Below the pieces are notes generated by a model. The model did no database searches and was not told the DNA's origin. It saw only the letters and a program-made list of their open reading frames with translations. A stretch of DNA of 64,000 nucleotides from Planctomycetales bacterium (GTDB lineage: Bacteria; Planctomycetota; Planctomycetia; Isosphaerales; Isosphaeraceae): NCBI GenBank assembly GCA_027449865.1, contig DAIDKV010000235.1, positions 1-64,000 of the forward strand. The letters run 5' to 3'. Made by a program: the position numbers and the translations under genes. This document shows positions 12,401 through 31,385 of this stretch, one piece after another. Each line of letters starts with the position of its first letter. The first letter of the stretch is position 1.

Positions 12401-12588
12401 TCTCCCCTGGCCCGAGGGCCATCTACCACGTGATCCAACCAGACGAGACGCCGAAAAGCATCGCTCGTGATCGGCTCGGCGACTCTTCTCGGGCCGAGGA
12501 AATCGTGCGACTCAATCAACAAATGCTCGCGAGGGAGGGTCGCTGGAAGGCGGGGCTCCGAATCCTGCTTCCTCCCGACGCCCAGTAA
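9421..12588 (+). CDS. Type II secretion/type IV pilus-like secretin with C-terminal LysM repeats
   Basis: A 1055-aa outer-membrane secretin of the GspD/PilQ superfamily. Signal peptide 1-25 ([14 protein letters not shown]) is followed by a Pro-rich linker. N-type domains (about 170-310) include [21 protein letters not shown] 13-glycine run is encoded by GGN triplets at 10381-10434. The secretin core (about 350-645) contains [38 protein letters not shown] and [12 protein letters not shown] roughly 250-residue Ala/Pro-rich spacer then leads to two LysM-like modules (about 903-953 and 1002-1052; [16 protein letters not shown] and [15 protein letters not shown]), which in other proteins bind peptidoglycan. 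TTG 9421 with AAGGGG upstream is the longest start; ATG 9439 is possible. The 3' end overlaps the convergent prepilin-peptidase-like gene by 77 bp. Confidence 0.9.
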
Positions 12589-13015
12589 TCGCCCGAAATC
12601 CCAACGGCCCGACCAGCACCCACCAGGCCGTCGCCAGACCGGCGGCCCAGCTCGATACGAGGAAGACGAGCATCGGCACGGCTCCGAGCCGCTCCCAGGG
12701 GTCGCCCCCCACAACCGCGACCGCGGCAAGGTACGGCATCGCGAAAAGCACGCCAATGGCCAGTTCAACCGCCGGATACCGAACCGAGATCGGCGCTCGA
12801 CAGCCACGGCATCGGCCGCGAAGGATCAACCAGCCGAGCACCGGCACATTGTCTCGGGCCCGGATCGAGAGACCGCAGTTCGGACATCGCGACCGCGGCC
12901 TCGTGATCCGCATCCCCCTCGGAATTCGGTAGACACAAACGTTCAAAAAGCTCCCCACAGACAGGCCCAGGACCCACCAGAAGGCCGCCATCGCGGCATG
13001 ATGCTCGATCGTCAC
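12512..13015 (-). CDS. Prepilin-peptidase-like protein, methylase half only
   Basis: A 167-aa membrane protein matching the N-terminal (methyltransferase) domain of PilD/GspO. It has [15 protein letters not shown], then a four-cysteine zinc site CPNC...CRGC, then [10 protein letters not shown]. In full-length PilD an A24 aspartyl peptidase domain with two catalytic Asp follows. Here only about two hydrophobic segments and a polar tail follow, with no GxGD motif. It may be a methylase or assembly factor, or a truncated paralog. GTG at 13015 is chosen because it forms a GTGA overlap with the upstream stop and has GAGGG about 8 bases before it. Confidence 0.8.
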
Positions 13016-13524
13016 GGCGAGGCCCTCGCGATCTCTGCCCGAGCGGCCTCCCTCGTTCCCGGCCGCCCGATCTGAAACAGCGTCCACTGATGGTACAGTA
13101 GAATCAAATACAGTCCGAGGAAGATCGGCAGAAGCCAGCCGACCCGGAATCGTGTGCGAAATAGCCGATAATGCTGGTAAACCACGAGAAACGGAATTCC
13201 CATCGCTGTCAAAACATACTTGCCCATCAAAAAGGAAAACTCTCCGTGGTGGAGAAGATGTGCCATTACCGGATTGATCTCCTCGCTGTTGAGGTCGATC
13301 AATTCGAGCGTGAGCACGCCATCGAGAATCGTCAGGCCGAGCAGGGCCACGATCATCGCAAGCATCGAGGTCGGGAATCGATCGACAAAGTACAGCCCCT
13401 CACGCTCCTCGGAACGCCGTGGGCGAACCCGACGCCCACCAGGCCGAAAGGCGTCAAGCGGCGAGGTGGGCTGGTTTCGGCGGTCAGACCCATCGCGGAC
13501 CCTCGGAAACGGATTGTCTGTCAT
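13012..13524 (-). CDS. DUF5658-like membrane protein
   Basis: A 170-aa protein. A basic, Arg-rich cytosolic N-terminus (about 1-45) precedes four hydrophobic segments: [20 protein letters not shown], a segment around [30 protein letters not shown], and [18 protein letters not shown]. The layout [10 protein letters not shown]...[10 protein letters not shown] matches the DUF5658 type known to me, whose function is undefined. The start at 13524 has GGAA about 10 bases upstream. It is translationally coupled to the prepilin-peptidase-like gene through a GTGA overlap, suggesting a shared membrane role in the secretion/pilus apparatus. Confidence 0.65.
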
Positions 13525-13737
13525 GGTGTTGCGTTCCAATCGCGACCATGAGTGAGAACGAGGGCCGGGAACGTGCAACGCGCTCCCGGACGGGCCCTCA
13601 ATCCAGCTTATGCCACGTTTCGAGGCCCGTGGTCCTTCCCATACCATTCTTGATCGCCCGATCCCATCCTCCAGGAACACGGCGACGACTTCTCCATCGA
13701 TCCGGCCAACGGGTGGTCGTCTCGGCTCGGCCGTCGA

Positions 13738-15471
13738 TCATTCCTCCTCGGCCATGGTGACACTTAGCGCCGCTTCGAGGCTGGTCAGCCCCTCTCGCAC
13801 CTTCACCAGGGCGCTATCGAAAAGCATCTTCATCCCTTCCTCACGCGCCGCCTTGCGAAGCTGGTCGAGCGGTGTCCGCTTCTGAATGAGGTTGGTCAAT
13901 CGGGGCGTGATCCGAATCACCTCGAAGACACCGATCCGACCGCGATACCCTAGCCGACGGCACTGCAAGCAGCCCTTCGGCCGATAGAGCACCTCGCCGG
14001 TTGTCAGTCCGTGCGCCTCGGCAAGCTCGTCGGTGACCTCATAGGGCTCCTTGCAATGCGAGCAGAGCTTCCGGACCAGCCGTTGGGCTTCCAGAAGACG
14101 CAACGCACAGGAGAGCAGAAACGGCTCGATCCCCATGTCCTGAAGCCGGGTCACGGCCGAGAGAGCGTCGTTGGTATGGATCGTTGACAGAACGAAGTGC
14201 CCGGTCAGGGCAGCCCGCAGGCAGATCTCGGCCGTCTCCTGGTCGCGAACTTCGCCCACCATGATGATGTCCGGATCTTGCCGCAGGAAGGCCCGCAGGG
14301 CCGACTGGAACGTCAGACCCACCTGCGCCTTGACCTGCACCTGATTCATTCCCTTGAACTTGTACTCAACCGGATCTTCAACAGTGCAGATATTCACCTT
14401 GGAATCATTCAACTGGTTCAGACAGGAATAGAGGGTCGTGGACTTGCCGCTACCGGTCGGGCCAGTGACCAGAGCCAGGCCGTAGGGCGAGTGGATCGAC
14501 TCCATCAGATCCCTCGACTGTCGTTCGTCAAAACCCAGTCCCATCAGGTTGAGGGGAATCGCCCCCTTGTCGAGAATACGCATGACCATTTTTTCACCGT
14601 GTACCGTTGGCACGGTGTTGACGCGAAGGTCGACCCGCTTCTCGCCGGTCCTCAGCGCGATGGCGCCGTCCTGGGGAATTCGCTTCTCGGCGATGTCCAT
14701 CTTGGCGAGGACCTTCAATCGCGAAACAATCATGATGAAGGCGGTCTTCGACGGCGAGGGAAGCTCGTGCAGGACGCCGTCGATCCGGAGCCGGAACTTG
14801 CAGCCGTCCTCGAACGGCTCCAGATGAATATCGCTCGCATTGTTGCGCAGGGCCTGTTCGAGAATCTGGTTGACCATCCGGACGATTCGGCCATTGGCGT
14901 CGGACGGCGGGGTGGCATCGAGGTTGAGGATATTTTCATCCTGGTGCTCCTCGACCTCCGGAACGTCGAAGCTATCGCTTCCCTCGCCGATCCCCTTGGC
15001 GTTCTCGGCCGATTTGAAAAGCGCATCGAGCCGCGACTGAACGACCGAGAGAGGCGCGATCATCGGATTGATCCGCAGCCCGGTCATCAGCTCGAGCTCG
15101 TCGACGGCTCCCATCTCCTCGGGCGAGACAAAAAGGACATCAAGAACGTCGTCTCGGATTCGGTAGCCGCAGAACAATCGTTCGAGGCAGAGCTTCTCGG
15201 GCAGAAGTCCGCCGGCTTCCTTGTCGGCGTCACCGGCCTCGACATTGCTCGGGACCATCGGCAGGAAGAGGTCCTCGGCGTAAATTCGGGCGACCTCGGC
15301 CTCCGAGATGTAGCCGCCGCGGATCAGGGCGACCTCGGGCAATGTCTTCGAACCGGCCTTCTGAAGGACGCCCTCAAGCTCCTCCATCTGGTCGGGACGG
15401 AACCAGGATCGCCGTGTGAGCAGCTCCACGATGAGCGGCTGCATTCCGGCTTCCCGGAAGATGGTCTCCAT
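13738..15471 (-). CDS. GspE/PilB-family secretion/pilus assembly ATPase
   Basis: A 577-aa hexameric traffic ATPase that powers pseudopilus or pilus extension. The MshEN-like N-domain spans about 1-170. The ATPase core contains SDIHLEPFEDGCKFRLRIDG, Walker A GPTGSGKST, an Asp box (VEDPVEYK), Walker B QDPDIIMVGEVRD and the His box STIHTNDA. A zinc-binding CSHC...CLQC pair stands near the C-terminus, as in PilB/GspE. The start at 15471 follows GGGGGTGA; ATG 15444 is an alternative. It lies 42 bases downstream of the CheX-like gene on the same strand. It probably works with the secretin at 9421, although GspF- and GspG-type genes are not in this window. Confidence 0.92.
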   Translation of the reverse strand: METIFREAGMQPLIVELLTRRSWFRPDQMEELEGVLQKAGSKTLPEVALIRGGYISEAEVARIYAEDLFLPMVPSNVEAGDADKEAGGLLPEKLCLERLFCGYRIRDDVLDVLFVSPEEMGAVDELELMTGLRINPMIAPLSVVQSRLDALFKSAENAKGIGEGSDSFDVPEVEEHQDENILNLDATPPSDANGRIVRMVNQILEQALRNNASDIHLEPFEDGCKFRLRIDGVLHELPSPSKTAFIMIVSRLKVLAKMDIAEKRIPQDGAIALRTGEKRVDLRVNTVPTVHGEKMVMRILDKGAIPLNLMGLGFDERQSRDLMESIHSPYGLALVTGPTGSGKSTTLYSCLNQLNDSKVNICTVEDPVEYKFKGMNQVQVKAQVGLTFQSALRAFLRQDPDIIMVGEVRDQETAEICLRAALTGHFVLSTIHTNDALSAVTRLQDMGIEPFLLSCALRLLEAQRLVRKLCSHCKEPYEVTDELAEAHGLTTGEVLYRPKGCLQCRRLGYRGRIGVFEVIRITPRLTNLIQKRTPLDQLRKAAREEGMKMLFDSALVKVREGLTSLEAALSVTMAEEE

Positions 15472-17650: not shown

Positions 17651-20600
17651 TCAGACCGTCCGCGGCCTCGCCCGACTCCATTCCTGATCCAGTAACCGGG
17701 CTAACTCCCGGACATGCGGCTCCCGGACCATGCTGTGGTGCTGGCCAGGCACGGAATGCACCACCACCTCGCCCGCCCATCGGCCCCAGCCTCGATCAGG
17801 CGCCATCTCCACCGCCACCGGCGACTCCGTCGGTCGGAACAGGTCGACACGCCCAGGATAGGGCCTCAAAACGTATCGATCCGTAAGGACCATGTGATGG
17901 TGGAAAATCCGCTTCAGGTCGTCCAGAACCTGCCGGGCCAGCTCCATCGGCACGCCCGACTCGATCAGCCCCAGCCGCTTCGCGTGGTCCCAGAGGTACG
18001 GAAGCTGCTCGTCTGGCCCCAGCTCGGCAAGCTCCTCCAGCGAGAGGTCCAGGCCGTATTCCCGCCCAGGCTTCTCCGACCACTCCGGATCGTCGGACGT
18101 CTCGGCGGTGGTGTCCAGAAGCGCGAGAAACTCGATCGACTCCCCACTCGCGCGGAGTTGCTGGGCCATCTCCATCGCGATCAGGCCGCCCGCCGACCAC
18201 CCGCCAAGCCAGTACGGCCCGCTCGGCTGAACCTCTCGAATCGCCTCGATATACTCGGCCGCCATCTCCTCGAACCGGGCGGGCAAATCGGCCTCACCGT
18301 GCAAACCCCGCGATCGAATGCCGTACATCGGCCGATCCCGGCCGAGATGCCGCGCCATCGCCTGGTAACACACCACAATCCCACCAGGCGGATGCACAAA
18401 AAACCAGGGCGTGCCCGAGCCCTCCGGCTGAAGCGGGACAAGCAACTCCCTCGGCGCCGGTCGACCCGAGCCAGGTAGCCGACCCGACGAGGCCACCGAT
18501 CCCTCCCCAAATCGCTCGCGGATGACCTCCGGACACGCCTCGCCCAGGTAGTGCGACAGCCCCGCGATCGTCGGCGCGTCGAAAAGCGCGATCACCGAGA
18601 CCCGGTGCCCAACCCGCTCCTGAAGCCGGTTGATCAGGACCGCCCCGTCGATCGAGTTGCCACCCAGCTCGAAGAAATTGTCGTCCACACCCACCTGCTC
18701 CACCCGCAACACCTCCCGCCAGAGTTCCGCCAGAACTTCCTCCAGCGGCGTCCGGGGCGCGATCCCCGGACGAGCCAGCGCCGGCCGGTCACTCGGCGGC
18801 GGCGGGAGCGCTCGACGGTCCACCTTCCCACCCGGCGTGCGCGGAAGAGATTCGAGAACCAGGAACGCCGAGGGAATCATGTAATCGGGTAACCGCTCTT
18901 TCAAATGCCTGCGCACACTCTCGATCACGATCCCCTCGCCGACCAGGTGCGCCACCAGACGCGCTGCGCCCGGCTGAACGGTGACGACCGCCTCGCGAAC
19001 TCCCGGGTGCGCGATCAGGGCCGATTCCACCTCCCCCGCCTCGATCCGAAATCCACGAAGCTTCACCTGATGATCGAGCCGGCCGAGGAACTCGATCTGG
19101 CCGTCGGAGAGCCATCGGCAACGGTCGCCCGTCCGATAGAGCCGGCCGCCGCCGAACGGGTCGGGGACGAAGCGTTCCGCGGTCAGGGCCGGATCGTTCC
19201 AGTAGCCGCGCGCCAGCCCCGCGCCACCCAGAAAAAGCTCGCCCGGCACACCCGGAGCCACCGGCTGACCCTCGCGATCCAGGATGTACGTCCGAACGTT
19301 CGCGATCGGCCGGCCGATCGGAACCACCGACCTCGGCCCCCCACGACGGCAGGCCCAGCCGGTCGCGTCGACCGACGCCTCGGTCGGACCGTAAAGGTTG
19401 TACAATTCCACATCCAGGATCGCGAAAAGCCGCCGCGGAAGGTCGGGCGGCATCGCCTCGCCCCCACAACAGATCCAGCGGAGCGATCGACATTCAGGCA
19501 TCAGCGGATCGTCGAGCATCACTCGCAAGACGGCGGGCGGAACCTCCAGGATCGTCACCCCCTCGTCGATCACACGCTCCAGCAACCGGTGCGGATCGTA
19601 CTCCTCACCCGGTTCGGCCAGCACCATCCGCGCCCCCGCCCCGAGCGAGGGGAAGATCAACGCCACCGATGGGTCGAAGGTATACGGTAGGTTGTTCAGC
19701 ACCACGTCGTCAGCACGAACCGGCACATCACGATCCCGCCACTGAATCGTGTTCGCGATCGCCCGATGCTCGATCATGACCCCCTTCGGCCGACCCGTCG
19801 ATCCCGACGTGTACATAATATAGGCCAGATCGTCCTCGCGAACCCCACTCGTCGGCGGGCTCGATGGCTCCGACGAGTCCACATCCTCAAGGCAGAGGAT
19901 CGGAAGGCCGATGTCGGGAACCTCCACGCAGAGCGACCGACGCGTGACGATCGCACAGGGCGCTGTGTCTTCGAGAATCGTCCGCAGACGATCGGCGGGC
20001 GCCGCCGCGTCGAGCGGCACATAAGCCGCGCCCGCCTTCAGCGTCCCGAGAATCGAGACGATCGTCTCGGGCGACCGCCGGAAGAAGAGCCCGACCTTTT
20101 CCCCAGGCCCGGCACCCATCTTTCGCAGCCGATGCGCCAGCCGATTGGCGCGGGTCTCCAGCTCGGCGTAGGTCATCATCCCGGCGTCGGACGAGATGGC
20201 AACCGCCCCAGGCGTGCGCCCGGCCTGATGCTCGAAGAAGTGGTGCAGGCAAACGCCCCCGGGAAAGTCCACTCGCGTGCTGTTCCACTCGTGCAGCACC
20301 AGCCGGCGCTCGTCCTCGGTCAGCCAGGGAATTTGAGAGATCCTTCGCCCCGCATCCGCGGCGACCCCTTCAAGGATCGTGAGGAAATGCCCAACCATCC
20401 GCCGAACGGTCGCCTCGTCGAAGAGGTCTCGGTTAAACCGGAGCATCCCTTCAACCGTCCCGTCTCCCTCCTCGAAGGCCATTTCCAAATCCGACTGGCT
20501 GGATTGCAGCTCGACATAGTATTGCTCGACCTGGAGCCCGCCGACCGTCAACGTGGCTCCCGAAGGGGGCAGAAAGAACCGCCAGGCGCCAAGCTCCCGA

Positions 20601-21760
20601 GACCGGTGCGCCTTCTCCAGCGTGAACGAGACCTGAACCATCGGCGCCCGCGACGAATCCCGGCCAACGACCATCCGCTCGACGATCCTCCCGAACGGAT
20701 AATCCTGATGCTCCATCGCGTCGAGCACCGTCGCACCGACCCTGCGCAGAAGCTCGCGGAACGTCGGATCGCCCGAAAGGTCCGCGCGCAGAGGAATCAT
20801 GTTGATAAAATAACCAATCACATCCTCGAACCCGGGCCGCGTCCGTCCTGCGAAGGGCGAGCCGACGAGGAAATCGTCCTGTCCCGAGAGATGCCCAAGC
20901 TGCACCTGAAATGCGGCGAGCAGGACGGCATAAAGAGTCGTCGCCTCGCTCGCGGCGATCGTCTTCAGCCGGCGGACGAGACCCGCGTCGAGCCGCCAGG
21001 GAACCGCGCCGCCCCGATGGGTGAAAACCGGCGGCCGGGGATGGTCGGTCGGCAGGTCGAGAACCATGGGAGCGCCGGCGAGCTGTCGCTCCCAGTACGA
21101 CCAGAGGCGGTCTCCCTCGGGACTCGCAAGCAACTCTTCCTGCCACCGGACGAAGTCGCGATACTCCCGCGCCGGCGCGGGCAGGTCAGCCGACCGCCCC
21201 TCAACGGCCGCGGGATAAAGGGCCTGCATCTCCTCCAGCACCAGCACCAGCGACCAGAAATCGCCGACAATGTGATGGACCGTCAGCAGGAAAATGTGAT
21301 CGTCGTCGGCCCGGCGGAAGAGGTGCATCCGCATCAACGGGCCGCGCTCCAGGTCGAACGGTCGATGCGCCTCCGCGTCGAGCCGCCGTCGCAATTCGGC
21401 CTCATCCCAGGCCGAGGCCTCCGTGAATTCGAGCGGAAGCGGGGGATTCTCGTGGACCCGCTGCCAGAGCCGGCCTTCTCGCTCCTCGAACGTCGTCCTT
21501 AATCCCGGATGACGCGCCACCAGTTGCTGAACGGCCCGACGGAACGCCGGGAGGTCAAGCGGCGATCGAATCCTCGACGGATAACAGACGTGATAGGCCG
21601 AACCTTCGGGGTCCATCTGGTGCAGCGACCAGAGCCCACGCTGGCCGTGCGAGAGCGGAAATACCGCCGACCGCTCCGCCTTCTCGCGAAGTAGCCGCGC
21701 CAGCAGCCGCCGCTTCTCGTCGATCGACATCCCCTCGATGGGTCGCGCGGCGATCGTCAT
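17651..21760 (-). CDS. Nonribosomal peptide synthetase module C-A-PCP-TE
   Basis: A 1369-aa terminal NRPS module. The condensation domain (about 34-480) carries HHIVGDFWS at 162-170, with the catalytic second His and Asp intact. The adenylation domain (about 500-990) has YTSGSTGRPKG, LYNLYGPTEAS, YRTGDR and GGKVDRR. The PCP serine is in LGGNSI (Ser1036). The thioesterase (about 1110-1360) shows GWSAGG (Ser1189), Asp1216 and His1341. A hand-derived specificity code is D-P-A-E-C-G-L-V-D-K, which I cannot assign to an amino acid. Its ATG overlaps the PKS stop by 4 bases, so the acyl chain from the PKS is probably joined to one amino acid and then released by the TE. Codon use matches the neighbours. 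Confidence 0.94.
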   Translation of the reverse strand: MTIAARPIEGMSIDEKRRLLARLLREKAERSAVFPLSHGQRGLWSLHQMDPEGSAYHVCYPSRIRSPLDLPAFRRAVQQLVARHPGLRTTFEEREGRLWQRVHENPPLPLEFTEASAWDEAELRRRLDAEAHRPFDLERGPLMRMHLFRRADDDHIFLLTVHHIVGDFWSLVLVLEEMQALYPAAVEGRSADLPAPAREYRDFVRWQEELLASPEGDRLWSYWERQLAGAPMVLDLPTDHPRPPVFTHRGGAVPWRLDAGLVRRLKTIAASEATTLYAVLLAAFQVQLGHLSGQDDFLVGSPFAGRTRPGFEDVIGYFINMIPLRADLSGDPTFRELLRRVGATVLDAMEHQDYPFGRIVERMVVGRDSSRAPMVQVSFTLEKAHRSRELGAWRFFLPPSGATLTVGGLQVEQYYVELQSSQSDLEMAFEEGDGTVEGMLRFNRDLFDEATVRRMVGHFLTILEGVAADAGRRISQIPWLTEDERRLVLHEWNSTRVDFPGGVCLHHFFEHQAGRTPGAVAISSDAGMMTYAELETRANRLAHRLRKMGAGPGEKVGLFFRRSPETIVSILGTLKAGAAYVPLDAAAPADRLRTILEDTAPCAIVTRRSLCVEVPDIGLPILCLEDVDSSEPSSPPTSGVREDDLAYIMYTSGSTGRPKGVMIEHRAIANTIQWRDRDVPVRADDVVLNNLPYTFDPSVALIFPSLGAGARMVLAEPGEEYDPHRLLERVIDEGVTILEVPPAVLRVMLDDPLMPECRSLRWICCGGEAMPPDLPRRLFAILDVELYNLYGPTEASVDATGWACRRGGPRSVVPIGRPIANVRTYILDREGQPVAPGVPGELFLGGAGLARGYWNDPALTAERFVPDPFGGGRLYRTGDRCRWLSDGQIEFLGRLDHQVKLRGFRIEAGEVESALIAHPGVREAVVTVQPGAARLVAHLVGEGIVIESVRRHLKERLPDYMIPSAFLVLESLPRTPGGKVDRRALPPPPSDRPALARPGIAPRTPLEEVLAELWREVLRVEQVGVDDNFFELGGNSIDGAVLINRLQERVGHRVSVIALFDAPTIAGLSHYLGEACPEVIRERFGEGSVASSGRLPGSGRPAPRELLVPLQPEGSGTPWFFVHPPGGIVVCYQAMARHLGRDRPMYGIRSRGLHGEADLPARFEEMAAEYIEAIREVQPSGPYWLGGWSAGGLIAMEMAQQLRASGESIEFLALLDTTAETSDDPEWSEKPGREYGLDLSLEELAELGPDEQLPYLWDHAKRLGLIESGVPMELARQVLDDLKRIFHHHMVLTDRYVLRPYPGRVDLFRPTESPVAVEMAPDRGWGRWAGEVVVHSVPGQHHSMVREPHVRELARLLDQEWSRARPRTV

Positions 21761-24700
21761 GACACACGACCTTCCCCGTTGAGCAGCGCCATCAGCATCG
21801 CGTCAACCTGTTCACCTGGTAGATCCTCGATCCGAGAGAGGATTTCCATCGGCGGCGGCTCAACCGGCGGATGCGTCTCCAGCCGGTCGAGCCGAATCAC
21901 CTCCGGCGAGGGCGCCGGCTCCTCGGCGAGCCGATCGGCGAGCACCGAGGCGAGCCCGTCCAGCCCGGGGCATCGCATCAGCTCGACGATCGGCAGGTCC
22001 ACTCGAAGCTCGTGATGAATCCAGTTCCGAAGCTCAACGGCCATCAGCGAATCGATCCCAAGCTGAAGTAACGGCCGATCCCCCTCCCGCCGGTCGGGCG
22101 ACATTCCCAGCACCCGACCGAACTTGTCCCGGAGCAGCGCGCCAACCAGGTTCGGCCGATCGGCTGGCTCCGCCCCAAGGATCGCGTCAACACCCGAGAG
22201 CCCGTCCCTCGCCGATCGATTCTCGCCTGTGTCGCGCCGGCAGAGGTGCGCGAATCGTGGCGAAACCTGCCCCGTCACGCCGAGCCCACTCCATCGCGAC
22301 CACTCCACCCGCATCACACTTATCTGCACATGCCGGCGCAAGAGCGCCTTTTCCAGGGCCGCCATCGCCTGCGAAACCCGGAAGCTGAGCACGCCCTGAC
22401 GCTCCAGACGATCGCCCAGCTCGGCCCGACGCGCGAGGTATCCAACCTCGCCGAGATGGCCCCAGTTCATCGTCAGCGACGGCAATCCGAGCGACCGGCG
22501 ATGCCAGGCCATCGCATCAAGGAAAGCGTTCGCCGATGCATACGCCCCCTGCCCCGCGTGGCCAAAGACACTCGATAGCGAAGAGAACATCACAAAATGA
22601 TCGAGTGAGCGATTTCTCGTTGCCAGATGAAGGTTCCACGTCCCTTCAAGCTTTGGCGCCAGGACGCGAGCGATCCGATCGCGATCGAGGTTCACGAGCA
22701 GAGCGTCTTCCAGCACCATCGCCGCGTGGAAGATCCCGCGAAGCGCGGGCAACTCGCGATCGATCACGGCGAGGGTCGCGGCGAGGTCCTCTGCCCGCGT
22801 CACATCCGCCGCGCGAACCACGACCCTCGCCCCCCGACGTTCCAGATCGGCGACGGCCTCGGAGGTTTCGGGCCCCTCGGCGCCACGTCGCCCGACCAGC
22901 ACGAGCGTTCCGGCGCCTCGGTCGGCCATCCACTGGGCCAGGGCCAGTCCGAACCCGCCCAGGCCGCCGGTAATCAGGTAGCTCGCGTCTCGGCGGAAGG
23001 CCAGGGGCTCATCCTCGCCGGGGAGGATCCCCTCGGGGCGGTCGCCGAATGTCAGCACGACCTTGCCGATGTGCCGACCCGACTGCATGAACCGAAATGC
23101 GTCGACGGCTCGTCCGATCGGCCACTCACGACGCGGAAGCGGTTCGAGATCGCCCGACTCCACCCGCTTCACAATCGCGCGAAGCATCGAGCCCAGCAGC
23201 GCGGGCCGCTCGCGGATCACGCGGTCGAGGTCAATCGCCGAGAACGAGAGATTCCGTCGGAAAGGTTCCAGGCCAAGCCTCGTATTTTGATAGATGTCGC
23301 GCTTGCCAATCTCCAGGAACCGCCCGTAATCGGCCAGAATGCCCATCCCCCGAGTGATCGCCTCGCCCGGAAGGCTGTTCAGAATCGCGTCGACACCGCG
23401 TCCACCCGTACGATCGAGAACCTCATCCGCGAAGTCGAGCGAGCGCGAGTCCATCGCTCCCTCGATCCCAATCGCATGCAGATATTCGCGCTTTTCGACT
23501 GATCCCGCCGTCGCAAAGATCCTGGCTCCGATCGACTGGGCGATCCGCACGGCCGCGAGCCCGACTCCGCCCGTCGCGGCGTGGATCAGAACCGACTCGC
23601 CGGCCGTCAGCCGTCCCAGGTATTCGAGAGCGTACGAGGCCGTCAGAAAGGCGATCGGCAGCGTGGCGGCCTCCTCGAAGGTGAGCCGGGCCGGCTTCCG
23701 GGCGACCAGCTCGGCGCGGGCGATGACGAGACTCCCCATCGCGAACCCGGCGACCGCCACAACCTCATCACCGATCGCCCATTCCGAGACACCCGCGCCG
23801 ACCGCCGCGATCCGACCGGCGCACTCGGCCCCCAGAGGAATCGGTCCCTCGGCGAGTCCGGGATACATCCCCAGCGCCTTCATCACATCACTGAAATTGA
23901 GCCCGGCGGCGACGACCTCGATGACGACCTCGTCCGGCCCGGGCTCACGTCGATCGAGAGCCTGGATCGCCATCGCGTCGAGCGTTCCGACCTGCCGGAC
24001 GGCGAGCCGATACGGCATCGCTTCGGGGATCGGAGCGCCCTGCCCGTCCGGCGGCAACCCAGGCGCCGGCTGAAAGCGATGGACAAGCCGAACTCCCTCA
24101 CGCCAGGCAACCTCGTCCTCGTCGTCGTCCGACCGGACCTCGGCGAGAAGCGCGCCGAGGCCGTCGTCGACGGCGGAAGGATCCAGGTCCACCAGCCGGC
24201 ATCGAAGCCGCGTCGACTCGCCCGCGATCACCCGCCCCAGCCCGATCGCCGGGGATTGCGCCACGGCGATTGGTCCAGGACCAACCGCCTGGGCCCCCCG
24301 AGTCACCAGAAGAAGCCTCGCCGATCGCTCCGCCGCGACCCCCTCCCACGCCTGAACCAGCTCGACCACTCCAACCAGCCCCGCTTCCTGGTGAGCCGAG
24401 GGAGAGATCATGTTCTCAGGCTTTGGCGCGTCGAGGTTCGCCAGATGGACGATCCCCCGAATCGATTCACCCTGAGATTTCAGAATGCTTACCAGCGCGG
24501 GAGCGTCAGCAGCAAGGATCGCTCCATCTTCACGCAACGCCTCGGCGAGCCGTTCGCCGAGTCCCCCGCGATCGGCGACGATCAGCCATCGACCGGCCTC
24601 GTACCCGGAATCCTGGACCGACTTCTCCTGCCATTGGTAGGCATAAAACATCTCGTCGATCGAATCGCGGCCACCCCCGGCGACGCGAAGGCTTCGAAGC

Positions 24701-27700
24701 CCGCGCACTCGGGCGACGATTCGACCGTCGCCATCGTAGATGTCGACGTCGGAGACCGACCGCCTCGGTGTTTTTTCCAGGAGCCTGGCGTGCGCCCAGA
24801 CCAGGAGCCCCGGGCTACGATGGAGTCGAACCGACTCAATCTCGTGCGGCAGATAGAGCCCGCCATCGTATCGATCGAAATCCGCATCCGCCGGAATCAC
24901 GGCCTGAAGGCAGGCGTCGAGCATCGCCGGATGGAAGAGGTAGCCGTCCGTCGAAATCCCCTCGGGCAAGCGAATTTGGGCGATCGACTCACGATCACCC
25001 TGCCAGACCCGCTCGATTCCCCGGAAGTTCGGCCCGTAATGAAGGCCGATCCGCGAGAGGTATTCATAAGACGATTCTTGCTCATATTCGCGAGGACACC
25101 GGGCACGGATGGCGTCGAGCGACTCCACGGGCTCCTTGCCAGCCGGCCGGCGATGCACGGTCGCCAGGAGGTGCGAGGTCCATTCCGCGCGATCGTCGTC
25201 GACCGCCCGCGTGTGGACCTGCACCGTACCAGACTCGGGATCGAGGCTCGTCCGGAGCCGGAGCGGTCGGTCGAGATCGAGGAAGCACGGATTCGCGAGC
25301 CGGACATCGCGAATTTCGATGGAAGTGTTTTGCCTGTCTCCAGGCGTGGCGGCCATCGCCAGTTCGAGGTAGGCCGTCGCGGGAAGAATCGCCGCCTGCT
25401 GCACGCGATGATCGGCCAGGAACGGTAGCAATCGCAGGTCGAGTCGCGTCTCCCACGACGGTCGCGGAGTCTCCTGCTCGATGCCGAGCATCGGATGCGT
25501 CGGCCTGCTCAGCCGGCTGACCCGCGATTCCTCGGCCTCGTGCCAGTACCGCTCGCGACGCCAGGGATACGTCGGCAGCCGAAGACTCCCTCGCGGTTTC
25601 GGCATCAGTCCCGACCACTCGACCGGATATCCGATCGCGTGCAACGCGCCAAGAGATCGAAGCATGGTCGAACGTTCATTCTCATCGCGGCGAAGCGAGG
25701 CCAGCACCGTCACCGACCGATCGCGACTTCGAAAGACATCCACAATGGAAGAAGCTAGCACAGGATGTGGGCTTAGCTCCAGAAGCGTTTGGTACTCCCT
25801 ATCGAGGAGCCTGCGAATTCCATCCGCGAATCGAACGGTCCGCCGAACGTTTTGCCACCAGTATTCCGGTCCCAACTCGGTTCCGATGACCTGTCGTCCG
25901 GTCACGGTGGAGATCATCGGCCGCTTCGATTCGTCCGGCTGAGTTCCGTGGAGTGCCGATAGAAGCTCGTCGCGGATCGGATCCATCTGGGCGCTGTGGA
26001 ATGCGTAGGAAACCCGAAGAAACTTCGCGAAAACGCCCCGCGCCTCCAGCGCCGCGGCGATGGCTTCGAGCGGAGCCGACTCGCCGGAGAGTGTCACGGA
26101 ATCGGGGCTGTTCACGGCCGCGATCGAGACGCGATCGCCATGCGGGGCAATCAGCCGATCGGCTTCCTCGGGCGTGATTCCGGCGGCGAGCATTCGTCCG
26201 CGCTCGGGGGCCAGTTCCATGCAGCGTCCGCGATGGTAGATCACGCGGACGGCCTCTTCAAGTTTGAGGATGCCTGCCAGGTAGGCCGCCGCGACCTCGC
26301 CCACACTGTGCCCGATCAGGGCATCGGGCCGGACACCCCACGAAGCCCAGAGTTCCGCCAGACCCACCTGCAAGGCGAAGAGGCACGGCTGCGAGATGGC
26401 CGTGATCTCCATCCGAGAGCGTGGCTCGTCGGCCGAGAGTTCATCGAGAAGCGACCAGTCGCCGAGGGTTCGGACGATCGCGTCGCATCGCTTGATGACG
26501 CCTCGAAAGACGGGCTCGTCGCGGAGCAGTTGGCGCCCCATCGCCCACCACTGCGGCCCCTGCCCCGAGCAGACAAAGGCCAGCTTCGGCCGATCGCCCG
26601 ATGGCGTCCGCCCCTCGACCACACCCGATGGCGACTCGCCTCGGGAGTACGCGCGCAGGCGGTCCGCCAGCTCGCGCCGAGAGTCGGCCACTACCGCGAT
26701 CCGATGATCGTGGTGCGTCCGGCGAAGCGCGGCACTGGCGGCGATTTCGACGAGCGGCACATCCTCGGGCGATCGCTCGACGAAATCGGCCCAGACCTCG
26801 GCCGTCGCTCGAAGGGCCTCCGGACCTCGCGCGGAGAGCGGGACGAGCCAGGTCTCCGACTCGACCGTCGGCGCGGGGCCCTCGTCGGATCGGGGTGCTT
26901 CCTGAAGGACGACGTGGGCATTCGTCCCGCCGAAGCCAAACGCATTGACGCCCGCCAGCCGAGGGGCACCGCTCTCGGGCCAGTCCTCGGTTCGGGTCGG
27001 AACGCGAAGCTTCCATCGGTCCAGATCGATCTCGGGGTTGGGCCGCTCAAAGTGGAGATTGGCGGGAATCCGACGATGATGGAGCGCCAGCGATGCCTTG
27101 ATGAGCCCGGCGATTCCGGCGCCTGCTTCCAGATGGCCGATGTTCGTTTTCACCGACCCAAGGACGCAGGGACGATCGTCGGGCCGGCCCTCGGAAAGAA
27201 CGGTCCCCAGGGCTCTGGCCTCGATCGGATCACCGGCGAGGGTGCCCGTCCCGTGCGCCTCGACATAGCCGATGGCCGATGGTTTGATCCCCGCATCGCG
27301 GCAGGCTTCGCGGAGCAGCTCCTCCTGCGCCCGAGTGCTGGGCATGGTCATGCCGGGAGTCCGGCCGTCCTGGTTCATCGCGGTCCCTCGAACGAGGGCG
27401 TAAATGCGGTCGCCGTCGGCCATCGCCCGCGAGAGCGGCTTGAGGACGACCACACCAGCACCCTCGCTACGGACGAACCCGCCGGCGCCCGCGTCGAAGG
27501 CCCGACACCGGCCATGCGGCGAGAGCATCCCCATCCGCGAGAACCCGACGTACCAGTCGGGCATCAGCAGCGCATTGACCCCGCCAGCGATCGCCAGCGG
27601 ACAGCCGTCGTGCCAGATCGTTCGACACGCCAGATGCACCGCCACCAGCGCCGAGGAGCAGGCCGTATCCACCGAGGCGCTCGGCCCGCGAAGGTCGAGG

Positions 27701-28251
27701 CTGTACGAAATCCGGTTCGCCGCGATGCTCAGGGAGCCGCCGGTATTCGAATGCAGGTCGATCCCCGCGCGATCGCGGAAGCTCGTTCCCATCACCGGGT
27801 AGTCGAAGCTGGAGATCCCGACGAAGACCGAGGCGCGTGTCCCGGCCAGATGGTCGAGCCGCACTCCGGCGTCCTCAAGGCCCTCCCAGGCGACCTCCAG
27901 CAGCATCCGTTGCTGCGGGTCCATGCGCGCGGCCTCTCGCGGCGAGATCCCGAAGAACGGCGCGTCGAAGCGGTCGATCCCCTCGACAAACCCGCCCCAC
28001 TTGCTGTACGTCTTCCCCGGACGCGCGGGGTCGACGTCGTGAAAGGCCGCGATGTCCCAACGCTCCGGTGGGATCTCGATGATCGCGTCGACGCCCGATT
28101 CCAGCAGCGACCAGAACCCCTCGGGGTCGTTCGCTCGCCCGGGGAATCGGCATCCGATGCCGACGATGGCGATCGGCTCGCGACGGATTGGGTCCCTCAT
28201 CGAGACCGAGGGAAAGGCGATGGCCTTACCGTTGGCGTGGCGTTTGGACAT
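21757..28251 (-). CDS. Highly reducing type I polyketide synthase KS-AT-DH-ER-KR-ACP
   Basis: A 2164-aa single-module PKS. The KS (about 25-450) has the intact triad Cys198 (DTACSS), His333 (EAHGTGT) and His373 (NIGHLE). In the AT (about 555-850) GHSVGE holds Ser649, and YAFH at 749-752 is close to the malonyl-type HAFH. The DH (about 918-1190) has His948 (LADHRV) and a D-x3-Q pair in LDACLQ. After a structural pseudo-KR, the ER (about 1415-1735) has HAATGGVGLAAV. The KR (about 1755-1980) has TGGLGGFG, Tyr1904 and Asn1908, with LED in the LDD loop. The ACP serine is in GIDSL (Ser2068). There is no loading module or methyltransferase. Start 28251 has GGAG about 10 bases upstream. It should make fully saturated, possibly iterative, acyl chains. 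Confidence 0.94.
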   Translation of the reverse strand: MSKRHANGKAIAFPSVSMRDPIRREPIAIVGIGCRFPGRANDPEGFWSLLESGVDAIIEIPPERWDIAAFHDVDPARPGKTYSKWGGFVEGIDRFDAPFFGISPREAARMDPQQRMLLEVAWEGLEDAGVRLDHLAGTRASVFVGISSFDYPVMGTSFRDRAGIDLHSNTGGSLSIAANRISYSLDLRGPSASVDTACSSALVAVHLACRTIWHDGCPLAIAGGVNALLMPDWYVGFSRMGMLSPHGRCRAFDAGAGGFVRSEGAGVVVLKPLSRAMADGDRIYALVRGTAMNQDGRTPGMTMPSTRAQEELLREACRDAGIKPSAIGYVEAHGTGTLAGDPIEARALGTVLSEGRPDDRPCVLGSVKTNIGHLEAGAGIAGLIKASLALHHRRIPANLHFERPNPEIDLDRWKLRVPTRTEDWPESGAPRLAGVNAFGFGGTNAHVVLQEAPRSDEGPAPTVESETWLVPLSARGPEALRATAEVWADFVERSPEDVPLVEIAASAALRRTHHDHRIAVVADSRRELADRLRAYSRGESPSGVVEGRTPSGDRPKLAFVCSGQGPQWWAMGRQLLRDEPVFRGVIKRCDAIVRTLGDWSLLDELSADEPRSRMEITAISQPCLFALQVGLAELWASWGVRPDALIGHSVGEVAAAYLAGILKLEEAVRVIYHRGRCMELAPERGRMLAAGITPEEADRLIAPHGDRVSIAAVNSPDSVTLSGESAPLEAIAAALEARGVFAKFLRVSYAFHSAQMDPIRDELLSALHGTQPDESKRPMISTVTGRQVIGTELGPEYWWQNVRRTVRFADGIRRLLDREYQTLLELSPHPVLASSIVDVFRSRDRSVTVLASLRRDENERSTMLRSLGALHAIGYPVEWSGLMPKPRGSLRLPTYPWRRERYWHEAEESRVSRLSRPTHPMLGIEQETPRPSWETRLDLRLLPFLADHRVQQAAILPATAYLELAMAATPGDRQNTSIEIRDVRLANPCFLDLDRPLRLRTSLDPESGTVQVHTRAVDDDRAEWTSHLLATVHRRPAGKEPVESLDAIRARCPREYEQESSYEYLSRIGLHYGPNFRGIERVWQGDRESIAQIRLPEGISTDGYLFHPAMLDACLQAVIPADADFDRYDGGLYLPHEIESVRLHRSPGLLVWAHARLLEKTPRRSVSDVDIYDGDGRIVARVRGLRSLRVAGGGRDSIDEMFYAYQWQEKSVQDSGYEAGRWLIVADRGGLGERLAEALREDGAILAADAPALVSILKSQGESIRGIVHLANLDAPKPENMISPSAHQEAGLVGVVELVQAWEGVAAERSARLLLVTRGAQAVGPGPIAVAQSPAIGLGRVIAGESTRLRCRLVDLDPSAVDDGLGALLAEVRSDDDEDEVAWREGVRLVHRFQPAPGLPPDGQGAPIPEAMPYRLAVRQVGTLDAMAIQALDRREPGPDEVVIEVVAAGLNFSDVMKALGMYPGLAEGPIPLGAECAGRIAAVGAGVSEWAIGDEVVAVAGFAMGSLVIARAELVARKPARLTFEEAATLPIAFLTASYALEYLGRLTAGESVLIHAATGGVGLAAVRIAQSIGARIFATAGSVEKREYLHAIGIEGAMDSRSLDFADEVLDRTGGRGVDAILNSLPGEAITRGMGILADYGRFLEIGKRDIYQNTRLGLEPFRRNLSFSAIDLDRVIRERPALLGSMLRAIVKRVESGDLEPLPRREWPIGRAVDAFRFMQSGRHIGKVVLTFGDRPEGILPGEDEPLAFRRDASYLITGGLGGFGLALAQWMADRGAGTLVLVGRRGAEGPETSEAVADLERRGARVVVRAADVTRAEDLAATLAVIDRELPALRGIFHAAMVLEDALLVNLDRDRIARVLAPKLEGTWNLHLATRNRSLDHFVMFSSLSSVFGHAGQGAYASANAFLDAMAWHRRSLGLPSLTMNWGHLGEVGYLARRAELGDRLERQGVLSFRVSQAMAALEKALLRRHVQISVMRVEWSRWSGLGVTGQVSPRFAHLCRRDTGENRSARDGLSGVDAILGAEPADRPNLVGALLRDKFGRVLGMSPDRREGDRPLLQLGIDSLMAVELRNWIHHELRVDLPIVELMRCPGLDGLASVLADRLAEEPAPSPEVIRLDRLETHPPVEPPPMEILSRIEDLPGEQVDAMLMALLNGEGRVS

Positions 28252-28296
28252 GCGGTGCCCGCTCCATTCACTGGATCGCGTCCTATCCTGCAACTC

Positions 28297-28320
28297 GCAT
28301 GCCGGGTCCAGGGTCCATGC
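28297..28320. promoter_or_regulatory. Repeat-containing candidate operator in PKS/exporter divergent region
   Basis: GGGTCCA is tandemly duplicated (28304-28310, 28311-28317) and framed by GCATG (28297-28301) and CATGC (28316-28320). It lies 46 bases before the PKS start, inside the 215-bp region shared with the exporter operon. It is a candidate regulator-binding site; no regulator gene is adjacent. Confidence 0.3.
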
Positions 28321-28418
28321 CAGGGCCCCGCGCACGAGGACGCCCGATCCTTCTTCGGCAGGCCGGCCCGCTCGCTCGACGTGATCGTTTCGACGCTCCG
28401 CTCTCTGGTCGGTCGACA

Positions 28419-28427
28419 TGGTACAAT
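28419..28427 (+). promoter_or_regulatory. Extended -10 promoter of exporter operon
   Basis: TGGTACAAT matches the extended -10 form TGnTATAAT with one change. It lies 39 bases before the ATG at 28467. No -35 box is evident at the usual distance. Confidence 0.45.
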
Positions 28428-28466
28428 CCGATGGGTCGAACCGCTGGCAACCGAAATCGCGTGCCC

Positions 28467-29591
28467 ATGCCCTATTCGCTCAAGATTCTCTGTCGCGAGC
28501 CCCGGCGCTACTTGCCGGCGGTGCTGGCGGTCGCTTTTAGCGACCTTCTCATCACCGTGCAGGTGGGCTTGCTCCTCGGTGCTCTCTCGGTGCTCTCTCT
28601 CCCGATCGACCACGCCGCCGCCGATCTCTGGGTCGCCTCGCCCGACATCCAGAGCATCGAGCTGGGCTACCCGATCCCCGAGTCCTGGCGATCGCTTCTG
28701 GCAAGCCAGCCCGAGGTCATCGCGACCGAGCCCTATCTCTATGGTTACAGCTACTGGCGCAATCCGAGGGGCGGGTCGGAGGTCTGCTGCGTGATTGGCT
28801 CCCGACTCGAGTCGGGAGCACTCGGAGTCGTCAGCGATCTCTCGCCGACTCTCCGAGATCGCCTGACGGAACCCGGCTCCGTCGTCGTGGATGAGACGGA
28901 GCTCGAACGGTTGGGCGTCGACGGGGTTGGAGGAATCGCCGAGGTCGCCGGGCGCAGGGTTCGGGTGGTCGGCCTGGTGAGCGGGCTCAAAAGCCTCGGC
29001 CCACCCTACATTTTTTGCTCGATGCGGACCGCCTATCAAATTCAGCCGCTCTTCCGCGATTATCCCGGCCACACCATGTACCTGCTGGGACGGTGCCGGA
29101 ACCCGTCCGACGCCCCGGCCGTCGCCGCTCGACTCCGCCGTCGATCGGATCTCTCGGCCTTCACGAGCGGCGAGTTCTCCGCCCGGACACAGTTCTTCTG
29201 GGCGACACGGACCGAGGCCGGCATCGGCATGGGGTTCACGGCAATGCTCAGCCTGCTCGTCGGGATGGCGGTGACCAGCCAGACACTCTACGCCGCCACG
29301 GCCGCCTCGCTCCGGGAATACGCGGTGCTTCGGGCACTCGGAATCCCACGACGGAAAATGGCCGGTCTGGTGATGGCTCAGGCTCTCTGGGTTGGTCTGG
29401 CCGGGATCACGCTGGCGATGCCGTTGATCCAGGCGCTGGCCTCCAGCGGCGAAAGCGCCGGCGCCCGGGTTGTGCTGCCCGTCTGGCTCTACGCTCTCGG
29501 ATCGGGGCTAACCCTCTCGATGGCTCTGCTCTCCGGCCTGGCCGCGCTCCGCTCACTTCGACTGGTCGAACCGATCACGCTCCTCCGATGA
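28467..29591 (+). CDS. DevC-like ABC transporter permease (FtsX/MacB type)
   Basis: A 374-aa inner-membrane permease. One N-terminal transmembrane segment (about 17-40) is followed by a roughly 210-residue extracytoplasmic MacB-like domain and three C-terminal transmembrane segments (about 250-370). The loop ASLREYAVLRALGIPRRKM between segments is typical of the FtsX/DevC family. The start ATG 28467 fits an upstream extended -10; ATG 28431 is in frame but would overlap the presumed transcription start. It is the first gene of a permease-ATPase-membrane-fusion operon divergent from the PKS-NRPS genes. It probably forms part of a tripartite lipid or lipopeptide exporter. Confidence 0.85.
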   Translation: MPYSLKILCREPRRYLPAVLAVAFSDLLITVQVGLLLGALSVLSLPIDHAAADLWVASPDIQSIELGYPIPESWRSLLASQPEVIATEPYLYGYSYWRNPRGGSEVCCVIGSRLESGALGVVSDLSPTLRDRLTEPGSVVVDETELERLGVDGVGGIAEVAGRRVRVVGLVSGLKSLGPPYIFCSMRTAYQIQPLFRDYPGHTMYLLGRCRNPSDAPAVAARLRRRSDLSAFTSGEFSARTQFFWATRTEAGIGMGFTAMLSLLVGMAVTSQTLYAATAASLREYAVLRALGIPRRKMAGLVMAQALWVGLAGITLAMPLIQALASSGESAGARVVLPVWLYALGSGLTLSMALLSGLAALRSLRLVEPITLLR

Positions 29592-29616
29592 GATCCGGGA
29601 AAGGACCGTTCCGACG

Positions 29617-30327
29617 ATGCCCGACCAGCCCGCGCTGATCGCCCGCAACCTGGAGCGTTCGTATGGCGAGGGATCCTCCACCGCCCGGGTGCTGCGCGAT
29701 GTCTCGATCGAGCTCTATCCAGGCCGGGTCGTCCTGCTGATGGGACCCTCGGGCAGCGGCAAGTCGACGCTGCTGGCGGTCCTCTCCGGATTGCTGCGTC
29801 CCGACCGCGGCGAGGTGACGATCCTGGGTCGCTCCCTCTGGACGATCCGCGAGTCCGCTCGCGAGCGGTTTCGGCTCGAGCATTTCGGCTTCATCTTCCA
29901 GGGGTTTAACCTGTTCCCCTCTCTGACCGCCGCCGAGCAACTGGAGATGGTGGTTCGATGGGGCGAGGGCGCCTCCCCTCGCGAAGCGCGCCGACGAGTG
30001 GGCGCAATGCTCGATCAGCTTGGCCTGGGCGCACGAGGTCACATCCGGGCCGACCAGCTCTCGGGCGGGGAGAAGCAGCGTGTGGCCGTCGGTCGAGCAC
30101 TGCTCAAGAACCCTCGGTTCTGCTTCGCCGATGAACCCACCGGCTCGCTCGACTGGGGACACGGCGAGCAGGTGATCCGGCTCCTGCACGCGGCAGCGCG
30201 AGACCAGGGTGCCGTCCTCTTCGTCGTTGGCCATGATCCCCGACTGATCCCGTATGCCGACCGCGTCGTCCACATGGTCGACGGCCGGCTCTCCGACGAG
30301 CCCGCGTCCCTGGAGCCCACGTTATGA
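29617..30327 (+). CDS. DevA/LolD-like ABC transporter ATPase
   Basis: A 236-aa ATPase: Walker A GPSGSGKST (about 43-51), Q-loop FIFQGFNLFPSLTAAEQ, signature LSGGEKQR, Walker B FCFADEPTGSLD and H-loop VGHDPR. The sequence belongs to the MacB/LolD/DevA group that energises FtsX-type permeases. It is 25 bases after the permease stop and overlaps the next gene by 4 bases (ATGA), so the three are one operon. The partner permease and fusion protein favour an outward-directed exporter. Confidence 0.93.
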   Translation: MPDQPALIARNLERSYGEGSSTARVLRDVSIELYPGRVVLLMGPSGSGKSTLLAVLSGLLRPDRGEVTILGRSLWTIRESARERFRLEHFGFIFQGFNLFPSLTAAEQLEMVVRWGEGASPREARRRVGAMLDQLGLGARGHIRADQLSGGEKQRVAVGRALLKNPRFCFADEPTGSLDWGHGEQVIRLLHAAARDQGAVLFVVGHDPRLIPYADRVVHMVDGRLSDEPASLEPTL

Positions 30328-31385
30328 GTGCTGCGATTCGAGCTCTCGTCCTGGTCGCGATCGCGGGGGCCTTGATCGCCTCGGCGGTCCACTTCCAGGG
30401 CCGGGCCGCCGCGCCGGCTGGATCGCCTCCACCGTCGACGTCGACATCCGCCGACCGTGACTCGGGCCGGCTCATCTGCTACGGGACAGTCGATCTCGAG
30501 CAAGGCGTGGCCTCGCTATCGACCGTCGAGCCGGGTCGAGTGATCGCGGTCACGGTCGCCGAGAACCAGCACGTCGAGGCAGGCGCCGAACTGGTTCGGG
30601 TCGATGAGGCCGCGGCCCAGGCGCGGCTGGCCGAGGCCGAGGCGGCCGTCCGCCTGGCCCAGTTGCAGATGCGCGAGGCGGAAAAGCAGCCGTCGCTTCA
30701 TCGAATCCGTGTCGAGCAGCAAATCGCGATTCGGGACGCCATGCGGAGCCGGGTCGAGGCCGTCCGACGGACCCAGGAGCGCGAGGAACGGCTCGCGAAG
30801 TCAAATATCATCACTCAGTCGGACCGATCGATCAGCCAGGAGAAAATCCGTGAGGCTGAGGCGATGGAGCGCGCCGAGGCCTCCCGGCTGGAAGAACTGG
30901 AGGCGCAGGACATCGCCGGACCAATCGAGCGAGCCAGGCAGGAGTTGGTCGCGGCGGAGGCGCGCCGCGACCTGGCCCGGCTCGCGGTCGAGGGGCGTCG
31001 CATCCGGGCGCCCGGTCCGGGAACGGTTCTTCGGATTCTGGTCGCACCAGGTGACGTGCTGGGAACGCGTCCCGATCAGCCGGCGATCCTGTTCGCCGCC
31101 GATGGCCCTCGGGTGATCCGCGCGACCGTTGAGCAGGAGTTCGCCGGTCGGGTGAAGGAGGGACAGCCGGCGACAATCCGCGACGACGCCGACCCTACGA
31201 TGAGCTGGCGAGGGCGCGTCGGCCGGGTCGCTGGCTGGTACGGCCAGCGCCGGACGATTATGCATGACCCCTCGCAGATGACCGATGTCCGAACACTCGA
31301 ATGCCTCATCCGGCTCGACCCAGACCAGCCCGCACTTCGGCTCGGCCAGGGCGTCCGAATCGCCCTGGGAGCGGTCGAGCCCTGA
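30324..31385 (+). CDS. DevB/HlyD-like membrane fusion protein
   Basis: A 353-aa periplasmic adaptor. It has an N-terminal signal anchor (ALVLVAIAGALIASAV), a first lipoyl half (PGRVIAVTVAENQHVEAGAE), a long coiled-coil hairpin (about 95-205, Glu/Arg/Ala rich) and a second lipoyl half (RIRAPGPGTVLRILVAPGDV). A beta-barrel domain with GQGVRIAL ends the protein. HlyD-family adaptors bridge an inner-membrane ABC pump to a TolC-like channel. Together with the two upstream genes it forms the DevC-DevA-DevB set, in an order different from the cyanobacterial devBCA. Confidence 0.87.
   Translation: MSAAIRALVLVAIAGALIASAVHFQGRAAAPAGSPPPSTSTSADRDSGRLICYGTVDLEQGVASLSTVEPGRVIAVTVAENQHVEAGAELVRVDEAAAQARLAEAEAAVRLAQLQMREAEKQPSLHRIRVEQQIAIRDAMRSRVEAVRRTQEREERLAKSNIITQSDRSISQEKIREAEAMERAEASRLEELEAQDIAGPIERARQELVAAEARRDLARLAVEGRRIRAPGPGTVLRILVAPGDVLGTRPDQPAILFAADGPRVIRATVEQEFAGRVKEGQPATIRDDADPTMSWRGRVGRVAGWYGQRRTIMHDPSQMTDVRTLECLIRLDPDQPALRLGQGVRIALGAVEP

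Follow-up and report, generated by a model that had tools for sequence, protein, structure and literature searches.

Does a polyketide synthase (PKS) and nonribosomal peptide synthetase (NRPS) gene pair that faces a three-gene ABC exporter belong to one pathway and, if so, what would that pathway make and where would the product go? The question is raised by a divergent locus in an Isosphaeraceae genome. In the window, by which we mean the whole 64,000-nucleotide stretch of DNA analyzed, the PKS and NRPS genes lie on the minus strand, and a permease-ATPase-adaptor operon lies on the plus strand. In our reading, which we consider probable, the locus is a lipo-amino-acid biosynthesis and export cassette, and its product is a secreted accessory N-acyl amino acid (a signal, surfactant, or antibiotic-like compound). 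Scans with Pfam and NCBIfam found all five genes where the initial annotation had placed them. The features are as follows.

17651..21760, minus strand: NRPS with C-A-PCP-TE architecture, 1369 aa (C, 33–486; A, 509–854; PCP, 1009–1072; TE, 1120–1357); Pfam domains, motifs, and match to 4zxh.
21757..28251, minus strand: fully reducing type I PKS, KS-AT-DH-ER-KR-ACP; Pfam, ortholog alignment, and collinearity with 9d2y.
28252..28466, no strand: divergent intergenic region, ~215 bp; start codons from ortholog alignment.
28419..28427, plus strand: extended -10 promoter-like element of the exporter operon, TGGTACAAT; TGGTANAAT in orthologs.
28467..29591, plus strand: permease, 374 aa, MacB-fold (type VII) ABC, DevC-like; FtsX PF02687, 5e-9.
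29617..30327, plus strand: ABC ATPase of the DevA/LolD/MacB type, 236 aa; PF00005, 1e-32.
30324..31385, plus strand: membrane fusion (periplasmic adaptor) protein of the HlyD type, 353 aa; PF13437, 2e-7.

Two of these boundaries depend on start site assignment. The permease open reading frame spans 28188–29591, with the start ATG at 28467. The PKS open reading frame opens at 28419, and Met57, at 28251, is the candidate true start. In the ortholog alignment, Met57 is the first residue in four orthologs, and its codon is preceded by a GGAG-like element in most; this suggests that 28251 is most likely the true start and that the intergenic space is ~215 bp rather than 47 bp.

A single promoter shared by the two arms, as first proposed, was not borne out. 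In all seven orthologs from Isosphaeraceae, among them the relocated exporter of one draft genome (G008), the extended -10 element TGGTANAAT precedes the ATG of the permease by 47–105 bp, against a background expectation of 0.004 per 150 bp. No equivalent conserved element was found on the PKS side of the intergenic region; a shared divergent promoter was therefore rejected. The exact element was absent upstream of the exporters in a second family. A near-palindrome of the GGGACG...CGTCCC type was seen in the PKS leader of two genomes (G013 and G030), with an altered version in a third (G019; L046, L047, and L049); it is absent in the window and could be an operator or a leader structure.

Both enzymes have complete catalytic domains and carrier proteins, as a hybrid PKS-NRPS assembly line would, with one caveat in the DH domain. 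In the PKS, the KS motifs (DTACSS, HGTGT, and NIGH), the AT motif (GHSVG with YAFH), the ER and KR nucleotide sites, the KR Ser/Tyr, and the ACP serine are present and conserved in orthologs. The same is true of the C-domain HHxxxD, the PCP serine, and the TE Ser/His motifs of the NRPS, in which HHIVGD, LGGNS, GWSAG, and GQHHS are conserved; the TE end looks frameshifted in the G008 draft. YAFH is an AFH-type AT motif, which we take to be the form expected for malonyl-CoA rather than methylmalonyl-CoA. In the DH domain, the His and Asp are intact, but HxxxGxxxxP has another residue in place of its glycine; because of this replacement, the full saturation of the acyl chain predicted from the domains is likely rather than certain. 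A heterocyst glycolipid or PUFA-type PKS was rejected, with 394.6 bits on the PfaA-type model TIGR02813 against a cut-off of 1010, as was a NasY-type N-acyl amino acid synthase pathway, for which there is no stand-alone synthase gene among the five conserved genes.

The junction between the two enzymes is informative. Their genes overlap by 4 bases, the PKS C terminus carries IEDLPGEQVDAMLMALL, and the NRPS N terminus carries MSIDEKRRLLARLLREKA; each is a candidate docking helix. Across the split versions, the helix types are EDLxxEQVDALLxxLL at the PKS C terminus and LSLAEKRMLLAQLL at the NRPS N terminus. In two other genomes, the PKS and NRPS are one fused protein (G229, 3531 aa, L120:4276-14868; G250, 3549 aa, L121:3906-14552), and the docking-helix pair is absent at the junction of both fusions. 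The gene overlap, the helix pair in the split forms, and the fusions that lack it are good indirect evidence that the PKS and NRPS act in series, with the chain handed over directly through a candidate docking pair. Such naturally fused proteins are an unusually clear indication of the enzymes that work one after the other, and here they also pinpoint the candidate pair. On strong grounds, the acyl chain carried by the PKS ACP would thus pass directly to the NRPS C domain via the docking helices, and the C domain would very probably link it to the one amino acid that the A domain activates; release of the acyl-amino-acid product would fall to the TE domain. The earlier suggestion that one acyl chain is joined to one amino acid is supported. 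The fusion in G250 (L121) faces a gene for a further NRPS module and a KAS III-type gene.

Throughout Isosphaeraceae, the A-domain code is DPxExGLVDK; it is DAAPCGLIDK or DAAPCGLINK in the second family and DATQVGLVEK or DACESGLVEK in the fusions, so different lineages probably activate different amino acids. The exact codes were not matched in a literature search. An ornithine-type reading, based on acidic residues at two pocket positions, was dropped because the code varies in the second family and the fusions.

How the acyl chain is built is the point on which an alternative survives best. There is no loading module or acyl-AMP ligase in the cassette, which suggests that the PKS is probably iterative or extends a fatty acyl primer. 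It is quite possible, if not our preference, that the PKS extends a fatty acyl primer supplied by primary metabolism only once, in which case the cassette would tailor a lipid tail and not build it; the five conserved genes include no loading domain, acyl-AMP ligase, or second module, as this would predict. Against it, mono-modular reducing PKSs are known, and enzymes with the KS-AT-DH-ER-KR-ACP order have been proposed to be iterative (swfA, PMC3908369). The window PKS also has the same domain order as mycocerosic acid synthase (MAS; 9d2y), an iterative reducing PKS with which it is collinear and matches end to end, although MAS has no NRPS partner and the window AT has an AFH-type motif. MAS itself extends a preformed acyl primer, so the single-extension and iterative readings overlap.

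The initial annotation assigned the exporter to the DevC-DevA-DevB kind. This stands for its general type, its gene order (C-A-B), and its nearest family, DevC, but not for membership of DevBCA, which the family cut-offs and the permease tree both contradict. The permease scored 71.9 bits (5e-20) on TIGR01185 devC, the only NCBIfam permease model that it matched at 1e-3; the cut-off is 290 bits, and cyanobacterial DevC controls score 500–512 bits. The best of all NCBIfam models for the ATPase was TIGR02982 DevA, at 208.2 bits (cut-off, 295.8), and the adaptor scored 51.7 bits on the DevB model (cut-off, 129). Phylogenetic analysis of the permease placed the seven window-family orthologs in a fully supported clade inside a planctomycete branch, separate from a fully supported clade of cyanobacterial DevC, with MacB and LolC/E outside (support 100/100); the tree has several long branches, and its deep order is uncertain. 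Annotated cyanobacterial DevC sequences were reached via a related paralog from the window's own genome, and no cyanobacteria were among the plasmid homologs of the window permease itself. Five cyanobacterial controls have the gene order B-C-A.

Three known systems were considered for the exporter and rejected: DevBCA proper, because the permease, ATPase, and adaptor all score below their cut-offs and the permease lies outside the cyanobacterial DevC clade; MacAB, because the ATPase and permease are encoded by separate genes (29617–30327 and 28467–29591) and because of the tree and scores; and LolCDE, because there is one permease, no LolC/E match at 1e-3, and an HlyD-type adaptor. Tree and profile scores also answer a doubt raised in the initial annotation itself: the exporter does not cluster with macrolide or LolCDE transporters. 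On these sequence comparisons, it is its own planctomycete branch of MacB-fold ABC pumps.

A sequence search of the PDB with the permease found no relative. AlphaFold models of the permease (pLDDT 62) and adaptor (pLDDT 59) were of low confidence and were used for fold class and hairpin only. Foldseek matched the permease model to MacB, LolCDE, and HrtB, and the fold in this low-confidence model is of the MacB/LolC/HrtB type. In the adaptor model, an N-terminal anchor helix is accompanied by a long helical hairpin at approximately residues 95–223, which was modeled with high confidence, the remainder with low; such a hairpin would be suited to reaching an outer-membrane channel. The genome has many matches to TolC-family (OEP-family) outer-membrane proteins, none of them in the cassette; HgdD is the TolC-type protein with which DevBCA works. 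The exporter is predicted to work like the DevBCA or MacAB tripartite pumps, yet lies outside DevBCA by cut-off and tree. It would carry the product across the inner membrane, and a TolC-type outer-membrane protein encoded elsewhere in the genome would complete the exit from the cell.

To what extent do the synthase and exporter genes travel together? In 45 sampled Isosphaeraceae genomes, exporter orthologs (73–95% identity) and NRPS orthologs (64–91%) occurred together in seven; one 77%-complete draft had the NRPS ortholog without the exporter, and 37 had neither (Fisher p = 1.8e-7 for co-occurrence, a guide rather than an exact probability since the genomes are related). Across a class-wide sample of 348 genomes, exporter orthologs of at least 63% identity were found in 9 of 12 synthase carriers and in 0 of 336 others. 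Values of dN/dS against the nearest relative were ~0.08 for the permease and the KS domain, 0.10 for the ATPase, and 0.14 for the NRPS, consistent with purifying selection on the cassette genes. Given the co-occurrence and the purifying selection, the linkage of exporter and synthase is real and not due to chance.

Synteny, which the initial annotation had asked of related genomes, proved to be conserved. PKS and exporter are directly adjacent in the window and in four other genomes (G001, G013, G019, and G033), and the class-wide sample has the divergent cassette also in two genomes (G244 and G268) of the second family, f3, which is probably Gemmataceae, given that a contig named as Gemmataceae nests within the f3 permeases. 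The neighbors of the cassette are entirely different from one genome to the next, and no other gene is common around it, which argues that the unit is exactly five genes. A secretin gene, a prepilin-peptidase-like gene, and a PilB/GspE-type ATPase gene, with a CheX gene adjoining, lie at 9421–15471 in the window; this type II secretion or type IV pilus region is beside the cassette and is not conserved with it.

Adjacency of PKS and exporter is frequent but not obligatory. Singulisphaera acidiphila DSM 18658 (G030; 100% match to plasmid NC_019893.1) carries the cassette with 5 kb of unrelated genes (AbrB-family, isochorismatase, and TetR) separating PKS from exporter; the G008 exporter lies on a different contig, next to a helicase gene; and no exporter was found within the DNA read around the fused synthases of G229 and G250. 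In a third family, a distant PKS-NRPS homolog (G295) is preceded by a different MacB-type permease and followed by a related ATPase. Export by a pump of the MacB fold may therefore be a recurring need of the product, and the particular pump changeable.

The distribution is also patchy, with close orthologs in 8 of 45 family genomes and 12 of 348 in the class sample, so the product is most likely an accessory metabolite and not a universal envelope lipid. These counts are unlike those of a structural lipid and weigh against the cassette product being an envelope lipo-amino acid on the cell surface, an analogue of the heterocyst glycolipid layer, which we consider improbable. That the permease comes closest to DevC among curated families and the ATPase scores best on the DevA model would suit such a product, as would the export of a PKS-derived glycolipid by DevBCA in Anabaena (PMC8277102), but the exporter does not fall within the clade of cyanobacterial DevC, and the Anabaena DevBCA paralogues have varied roles, in drug export and resistance as well as with glycolipid (PMC8277102), which limits the value of the heterocyst analogy. 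The cell-surface export first suggested is thus unsupported where it implies a structural lipid. It is just as doubtful that the exporter serves for self-resistance or general efflux, with some other natural substrate, and was set beside the synthase by chance: the G008 exporter is indeed away from its synthase, and same-branch exporters stand beside asparagine-synthase-like and SDR genes, and once a squalene/phytoene synthase gene, with no PKS, but the clade of at least 63% identity occurs in synthase carriers only (9 of 12 versus 0 of 336), and the distant synthase is accompanied by a MacB-type pump of another kind.

A secreted accessory N-acyl amino acid thus remains our preferred reading. 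A wider one, which we put forward only tentatively, is that a perhaps mobile cassette makes a new class of reduced polyketide lipo-amino acids, with a new pump branch repeatedly recruited and a head group that varies by family. If true, this would be a dedicated, possibly horizontally mobile planctomycete cassette, and the pump branch would serve lipid or peptide pathways.

Comparison with known systems separates what is familiar in this locus from what is new. Cyanobacterial DevBCA and its paralogues are likewise three-part ABC exporters beside acyl-chain or peptide synthases: a Gloeothece PCC 7822 plasmid has PKS-ACP-FAAL-DevBCA, and an Anabaena WA102 plasmid has NRPS-desaturase-DevBCA. The pairing of PKS or NRPS with an exporter, presented in the initial annotation as DevBCA-like logic in a planctomycete, is therefore present but not new. 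Those loci differ from the window in their B-C-A order (C-A-B here) and their FAAL or desaturase gene, which the window lacks; its permease is on a separate branch and scores far under the family cut-offs. AB3403-type modules (4zxh/4zxi), EntF, and SrfA-C share the C-A-PCP-TE architecture of the NRPS, which matches 4zxh over its full length, but the NRPS here has a PKS ACP as its partner, together with a candidate docking pair.

The PKSs of two Deinococcus plasmid pairs (sp. QL22 and sp. KNUC1210) are 43% identical to that of the window over the full length and are followed, with a 4-base overlap as in the window, by a condensation-domain or adenylation-domain gene. Unlike in the window, thioester reductase and aminotransferase genes come next, and the A-domain code is different; no DevBCA-like exporter is annotated in these plasmid stretches. 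Radical SAM-type and KAS III genes also follow in these Deinococcus loci (L108 and L109), which are uncharacterized as far as annotated. Among planctomycetes, the stieleriacines are lipo-amino acids too, N-acyl tyrosines made by NasY, but this is a stand-alone synthase that works with fatty acyl-ACP and not a PKS-NRPS (PMC12479983). A genome-mining study has counted the PKS clusters of Isosphaeraceae, with no product assigned (PMC5352709).

A partial literature search found no earlier description of the cassette, the exporter branch, the natural fusions, or the docking pair. The cassette is a small, complete, and testable biosynthesis and export unit that is present in a cultured, sequenced bacterium, S. 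acidiphila DSM 18658, in a phylum with many predicted and few characterized natural products. The exporter branch could provide a handle on matching MacB-fold pumps to lipid-like cargo.

Cargo may vary within this branch. In the second family, exporters at 49–57% identity are widespread in the absence of the synthase, which suggests that the branch handles more than one cargo, and a member is also found beside an NRPS cluster in G019. In f3, same-branch exporters follow or are near a conserved ORF of ~660–700 aa (L052, L054, L056, L058, L059, L060, and L062). The one scanned (L052) is asparagine-synthase/glutamine-amidotransferase-like and is accompanied by an SDR gene; at L054, a squalene/phytoene synthase gene is downstream of the exporter. 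Another candidate lipid factory with an exporter was seen in G044 (L061:12868-19998), where a DevC-like permease and adaptor adjoin the start of a FAAL-CMAS(cyclopropane synthase-like)-ACP-KS-AT-DH megasynthase. The window's own genome has a second DevC-like permease (L063 and L064; G000:C206, ~78–93 kb) that scores 112 bits on the devC model and is closer to DevC than the window permease; a pair of stand-alone ketosynthase genes lies ~11 kb away. A relative of this second permease is found beside a ketosynthase match in G022 (L034).
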